Below the pieces are notes generated by a model. That model saw only the letters and a program-made list of their open reading frames with translations, made no database searches and had not been told where the DNA came from. Shown here in pieces: positions 35,517 through 37,194 of a stretch of DNA of 64,000 bases. Origin of the DNA: Terriglobia bacterium (GTDB lineage: Bacteria > Acidobacteriota > Terriglobia > JAIQFV01). The position numbers and the translations under genes are program-made. The stretch lies in NCBI GenBank assembly GCA_020073085.1, contig JAIQFV010000026.1:1-64000 (forward strand), in the 5' to 3' direction. Within the stretch, counting starts at the first letter, position 1. Each line of letters begins with the position of its first letter.

Positions 35517-35841
35517 GCGAGCCTCCCGGGGTTAGTGTTTGACGGCGAAACCAAGCAAGCGTTTGAGGAACCTTCACAACCCCTACGTTCATCGATGTCA
35601 TTATATTCCAAAGAGTTGCCAGGGGGCGGGTATAATTTTCGACATTTAGGGCTGGGTCCGCGCCTACATCCTCTTTGAAGCTTGTGAAGCTCCCGGCCGC
35701 AGTGAAACAACTTTTGCCCAATGGCATGCGATGGTCCTTCTTATTTTCCACCTCCTCCCAAAAGGGCTGATGACACTGCCTTGCTCAATCTGGTAAGCTC
35801 TTCTGCGGGACTTAGTCCGGCCAAGAGCGGAGAATCAATCC

Positions 35842-36282
35842 ATGAGGCAAAAAATAACATTAATTGTGATGCTGTTGGTATTCGCCTTACCTGCCGCAGG
35901 GTGGTCCCAGGAGAAACAGAATGAGCGGCCGCCAAGTGGGCCCAAACTTGTCGTGGATTCGGTGACTCATGATTTTGGGGTTGTCAGGCCGGGTACGCCG
36001 CTCAGGTATTCCTTTGCGATAAAAAACCAAGGGACCGCGGACCTGATTATCAGGTCCGTGAGCCCAGGCTGAGGGTGTACTGCAAGCGACTTTGATAGAG
36101 TCGTCCCTCCTGGCAAGGAGGGCAAAATCACATTGAGCGTCGAGCATACGGAAGGCTATCGCGGGGAGATTCTAAAAGGAGCCAGCGTGGCGACCAACGA
36201 TTCCACTTTTCCCAATTTTGGCCTGTTCATGCGGGCACAGTTCGAAGAGGAAAAGAAATCCGCGGAGTCCCCTCCGCGCTGA
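35842..36282 (+). CDS. DUF1573 domain protein with in-frame TGA, candidate selenoprotein
   Basis: The frame opens at ATG 35842 with a signal peptide (MRQKITLIVMLLVFALPAAG) and runs into the DUF1573 domain. At codon 77 (36070-36072) there is a TGA, after which the same frame continues for 69 sense codons to a TGA at 36280-36282, completing the domain. The family motif around this point is normally SCGCT; here it reads SPG-(TGA)-GCTASDF, so TGA sits on the first Cys of CGC. Downstream residues (VPPGKEGKITLSVEHTEGYRGEILKGASVATND) fit DUF1573 with no frame shift. A SECIS-like hairpin begins at the TGA. Read as selenocysteine, the product has 146 residues with a Sec-Gly-Cys pair. The alternatives are a single nonsense mutation or a sequencing error. 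Confidence 0.7.
36070..36109 (+). promoter_or_regulatory. SECIS-like hairpin following the in-frame TGA
   Basis: The lower stem GAGGG (36071-36075) pairs with CCCTC (36105-36109). An asymmetric internal loop follows, then an upper stem CGACTTT (36087-36093) with AGAGTCG (36097-36103, one G-U pair). The apical loop is GAT with G first, 21 nt after the TGA. A guanine early in the apical loop at about 16-37 nt from UGA is what bacterial SECIS models expect. This was paired by eye, with no energy calculation. Confidence 0.5.
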
Positions 36283-36966: not shown

Positions 36967-37194
36967 ATGAAACTGTTAAAATCATTTCTCTTCATTATCC
37001 TCTCGATAGTGCTCTCTGTTTCAGTTCTGAATGGGAAGGCGGAATTTACCAAGAAGGAGGGCAAGCCCTGCAATTATTGTCATACCAAGGGCCGGGAATT
37101 GAATGAGGTGGGCAGATGCTATGAGAAAACCAAGAATCTGGCAGACTGTAAGACTCCGGAGCCCAAACCAATAAAGGAACCCAAGCCCAGCTAA
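36967..37194 (+). CDS. Small exported protein with one CxxCH haem-binding motif
   Basis: The 75-residue protein has a signal peptide (MKLLKSFLFIILSIVLSVSVLNGKA) and a single CNYCH motif (Cys38-His42) in the sequence KEGKPCNYCHTKGRELNEVGRCYEKT. It is probably a tiny periplasmic mono-haem cytochrome c. A remaining Cys pair (RCYEKTKNLADC) could form a disulfide. The tail is Pro/Lys-rich (EPKPIKEPKPS). The start follows GAGAGGAGGCGGCGATC. Its partner is not obvious. Confidence 0.75.
   Translation: MKLLKSFLFIILSIVLSVSVLNGKAEFTKKEGKPCNYCHTKGRELNEVGRCYEKTKNLADCKTPEPKPIKEPKPS

Follow-up and report, generated by a model that had tools for sequence, protein, structure and literature searches.

A DUF1573 gene on the forward strand of the window (the whole 64,000-nucleotide stretch of DNA analysed here) raises the question of whether a TGA codon in the middle of its frame ends translation or is read as selenocysteine (Sec). 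The frame, from 35842 to 36282, is open throughout save for the TGA at 36070-36072. A first-pass annotation had described a single DUF1573 frame with one TGA at the first Cys of a CGCT motif, and both sequence and frame bear this out. The gene starts with an ATG at 35842, 9 nt downstream of GGAG (35829-35832), from its sequence a likely ribosome-binding site, and stops with a TGA at 36280-36282, giving 146 residues when the internal TGA is taken as Sec. Residues 1 to ~23 (35842-35910) make up a putative signal peptide with a Lys/Arg start and a hydrophobic core, low-confidence and unstructured in the structural model, and the product is putatively an exported or periplasmic protein. The DUF1573 domain, a single Ig-like beta-sandwich of the ASH/PapD type according to the Pfam match and the predicted structure, covers residues 36-137 (35947-36252); Pfam PF07610 gives the protein 58.5 bits, over a gathering score of 26.1. 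The TGA is codon 77, predicted to encode Sec where CGC would have its first Cys, in the residue context SPG-U-GCTASDF, and the same codon is TGA in relatives. Its partner, Cys79 (TGT, 36076-36078), is invariant in our alignment A5. Upstream of the gene, a stretch at 35763-35803 around GGCTGATGACACTGCCTTGCTCAATCTGGTAAGCTCT is nearly identical in a sister species amid diverged flanking non-coding DNA; it is perhaps a promoter or leader, and a sigma-70 scan of it found nothing.

Downstream of the TGA lies a candidate for the upper hairpin of a bacterial SECIS element, GCGACTTT-GAT-AGAGTCGT (36086-36104, + strand), identified by folding and by the model rules in PMC13188914. It begins 13 nt past the TGA and pairs 36086-36093 with 36097-36104 in a stem of 8 bp. 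According to PMC13188914, the bacterial SECIS model has a loop of 3-9 nt, an upper stem of 4-16 bp, a G within the first two loop positions, a distance of 16-37 nt from the UGA and a minimum free energy at or below -7.5 kcal/mol. The window hairpin, with a loop of 3 nt, G first, a stem of 8 bp and a spacing of 21 nt, fits this model, and when it was scored against the rules, as the first-pass annotation had proposed, loop, stem, G, spacing and energy all fell within the limits. The 40-nt element folds at -13.3 kcal/mol and the 42 nt that follow the TGA at -10.0, the upper hairpin alone giving -7.1. The upper stem, the GAT loop and the 21-nt spacing claimed for this element were thus recovered, whereas its lower stem is less certain: GAGGG (36071-36075) and CCCTC (36105-36109) can close a stem around the upper hairpin in the 40-nt fold (36071-36109, + strand), but in a 56-nt fold CCCTC favours a second hairpin immediately downstream. 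This second hairpin, CCCTCCT-GGCA-AGGAGGG at 36105-36122, is kept in both species of the genus.

Such a hairpin is weak evidence taken singly, because, of 2129 TGAs taken at random across the window, 7.1% have an equally stable one after them under the same rules, and for that reason we did not accept the hairpin by itself as proof of a SECIS element. What decides the selenoprotein case is the comparative evidence.

The closest comparison comes from a second species of the same genus, the metagenome-assembled genome Terriglobia bacterium SRVP_39 (Acidobacteriota). Its copy, 79% identical in protein sequence, sits between the same neighbours, carries the codon-77 TGA as its only internal stop, and keeps the hairpin. 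From the TGA on, 3 of 20 codons differ between the two species (codons 77-96), compared with 40 of 76 before it (codons 1-76; permutation P 0.005). Nucleotide changes past the TGA are mostly synonymous, and those inside the hairpin are in the loop or preserve a pair (U-G to U-A). Among 60 relatives (all but two only of the same class), no close homologue was found outside the genus, and a search of viral contigs found no relatives.

Further away, we ran the NCBIfam model NF041425, OS_HP2 family (seleno)protein, on a sample of 396 Acidobacteriota genomes, in which it listed 31 further DUF1573 copies whose sole interruption is a single TGA. In all 31 the TGA supplies the U of U-G-C, and no stop codon other than TGA interrupts any listed copy. 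The comparison of homologues at this codon, suggested by the first-pass annotation, thus found TGA conserved in a second species and in 31 further copies, with hairpins downstream. One fixed hairpin rule set was applied to all copies, with a threshold for the upper hairpin at or below -4.5 kcal/mol; 26 of 33 TGA copies reached it, compared with one of 25 Cys copies, and, of the seven remaining TGA copies, the six that were folded freely still form hairpins, albeit outside the strict rule. Most relatives in the phylum have ~340-400 residues, with extra C-terminal sequence, and the window copy is a short single-domain form. One protein (L109, G657:C24:100533-102811) has tandem DUF1573 domains, CGC being in the leading one and UGC in the one after it.

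The downstream hairpins fall into three sequence classes. In the largest (n=16), 95.8% of alignment cells are paired, dropping to at most 53.5% once the pairing is slid, and two-sided changes number 15, where shuffles average 5.5; covariation is 0.368 compared with 0.149 after shuffling, with none of 500 shuffles as high. Paired codons in this class co-vary as GAG..TCG (E..S), TCG..GAG (S..E) and GGG..CCG (G..P), so that the predicted stem is supported by compensatory changes. The window's own class is 90% paired and near-invariant, with too little variation for covariation by itself.

The genome to which the window belongs (68 contigs, 98.7% complete) was searched for the four genes named in the first-pass annotation, and all of them were found: selA (563 bits), selB (391 bits), selC, a tRNA-Sec with anticodon TCA (UCA), and selD (376 bits), which carries an in-frame TGA of its own. 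Because these genes are present and their roles are established, the genome is expected to decode UGA as Sec. One in-frame TGA occurs in this selD (L042, G000:C2:310384-311310) and in those of two relatives (L041, L043), as in Sec-containing SelD proteins. When the genome was searched by pattern for additional UGC genes, a second match came up at G000:C24:42075, which is a candidate only. Across the phylum, selB scored over the cut-off in 29 of the 30 genomes with a TGA copy and in 18 of the 30 with Cys copies only (P 0.001, uncorrected for shared ancestry, and with a Cys-only set made up of best-scoring copies instead of a random sample). The one TGA genome with no selB match over the cut-off, G709, is in 820 contigs.

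Conservation of the TGA and hairpins in relatives, in a genome equipped with the full Sec machinery, strongly supports the selenoprotein reading, and we consider that the gene at 35842-36282 almost certainly encodes a selenoprotein. A nonsense point mutation, the alternative that the first-pass annotation had kept, or an assembly error could have turned TGC or TGT into TGA in an otherwise normal DUF1573 gene of the Cys type; TGA is one base from either codon and Cys versions are common in the family. This explanation is refuted by the conservation of the TGA in independent genomes: a separate species and 31 further copies from other families of the phylum share it at this codon, hairpins included, and the changes after it in the sister species are mostly synonymous. 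We give it next to no probability. The UGA might instead be read by a near-cognate tRNA, readthrough being possible in principle, or be reassigned throughout the genome, making residue 77 Trp, Cys or another amino acid. Global reassignment was rejected because the gene itself terminates in TGA. The usual Sec TGA of selD in a genome with complete Sec genes, together with hairpins that accompany TGA copies and not Cys copies, also makes this explanation very improbable.

On the selenoprotein reading, SelB and Sec-tRNA(UCA) would read the UGA at 36070-36072 as Sec, directed by the hairpin just downstream, and we infer Sec insertion at codon 77 and export of the product. This would be a small exported protein made up of one Ig-like (ASH/PapD-like) DUF1573 domain, with a Sec77-Gly78-Cys79 pair in a turn between two strands. 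The AlphaFold model is a confident Ig-like sandwich (mean pLDDT 88.5, ~97 in the domain), and its strand list places UGC between strands 68-75 and 80-84. Foldseek returned ASH/PapD-type matches (E 2.5e-6 to 8e-6, sequence identity 12-22%), and a PDB sequence search with the single window protein gave no match. The fold is like that of the ASH/PapD-like Ig domains of HYDIN, CEP192, OCRL, the VesB/VesC C-terminal domain and PDB 2qsv of Porphyromonas gingivalis, of which, to our knowledge, the UGC/CGC motif is not a defining feature.

The Sec-Gly-Cys pair may form an extracytoplasmic thiol-redox centre, in which a Sec-Cys selenosulfide would accept or donate electrons. We consider such a role somewhat probable, the hints being the UGC spacing and a single redox fusion, L131:974-2279, in which Sec-DUF1573 is followed C-terminally by an AhpC-TSA/thioredoxin-like domain (CGYC). 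Cys-Gly-Cys peptides are redox-active mimics of disulfide isomerase, which offers a lead only. No recurrent or redox partner gene was found beside the TGA copies when 83 neighbours in 28 relatives were scanned. The pair could also bind a soft metal or metalloid (Cu, Hg, As, or selenium itself), making the protein a periplasmic metal chaperone or sensor and not a redox protein. There is a match to the copper-homeostasis lipoprotein model NF052429, but it is insignificant (E 0.055) and falls largely on the signal peptide. Some 270 bases downstream is a putative heavy-metal-binding gene of the YbjQ type that the sister genome has kept, but metal genes do not recur next to other TGA copies. We see a soft-metal ligand role, the main rival, as unlikely, and less likely than a redox one. 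Also near the Sec gene and conserved in the sister genome, a gene at 36967-37194 encodes a small secreted protein with CNYCH, a heme-c-like CxxCH motif.

Sec and Cys have been exchanged repeatedly, in one direction or the other, because the Sec label requires seven changes on a tree of 70 rows and ~100 columns, at least four of them forced by supported branches. The window copy groups, with weak tree support, with copies of family f23 from other parts of the phylum (63-64% identity), and transfer of the gene between lineages is possible. As a tentative picture, Sec-DUF1573 might be an exported Sec-Gly-Cys oxidoreductase, widespread in Acidobacteriota, whose scaffold is an Ig-like ASH fold instead of a thioredoxin fold; Sec and Cys would have been swapped several times and the hairpin gained or lost each time within coding sequence, RNA pairing thereby shaping the protein (E..S, S..E and G..P at paired codons).

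The first-pass annotation knew of no described DUF1573 selenoprotein, which proved wrong. An OS_HP2 selenoprotein (pfam07610, UxC) is listed in 2008 (PMC2398784) and a DUF1573 domain-containing selenoprotein with the motif UGC in 2022 and 2026 (PMC9312934; PMC13188914), the 2026 review giving one Sec motif and one example accession; NCBIfam holds the model NF041425. The kind is therefore already known and the window gene is a new member of it. Selenoproteins in Acidobacteria in general are recorded (PMC1794560), Acidobacteriota are not named for the DUF1573 selenoprotein in the relevant passages of PMC2398784, PMC9312934 and PMC13188914, and its extent in this phylum seems undocumented as far as this literature shows. 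The broad occurrence in Acidobacteriota, the repeated Sec/Cys exchange and the one fusion to a thioredoxin-like domain are new. An obscure selenoprotein family thus becomes a set of 33 aligned Sec copies with matched Cys copies in one phylum, usable for testing the role of the U/C-G-C centre and the rise and loss of SECIS elements inside coding sequence. Many Sec-DUF1573 genes are probably annotated as truncated.

OS_HP2, from the Olavius algarvensis symbiont and marine GOS samples, shares with the window protein the Pfam DUF1573 domain, Sec as the first residue of U-G-C and a bacterial SECIS element, and NF041425 matches all 32 aligned TGA proteins. The window copy differs in being short, single-domain and from Acidobacteriota, and its match (E 2.2e-23, 82.5 bits) lies under the naming cut-off of 100 bits. 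Since only three of the 396 phylum genomes pass this cut-off, the listed TGA copies all falling short of it, it fails to separate Sec from Cys copies here; we class the gene among DUF1573 UGC selenoproteins, as a relative of OS_HP2, and not as an NCBI-named OS_HP2. The Cys-type DUF1573 proteins of Bacteroidota and Acidobacteriota have the same domain and the CGCT motif, but carry a Cys codon in place of the TGA and, in 24 of 25 copies, lack a SECIS-like hairpin at or below -4.5 kcal/mol.
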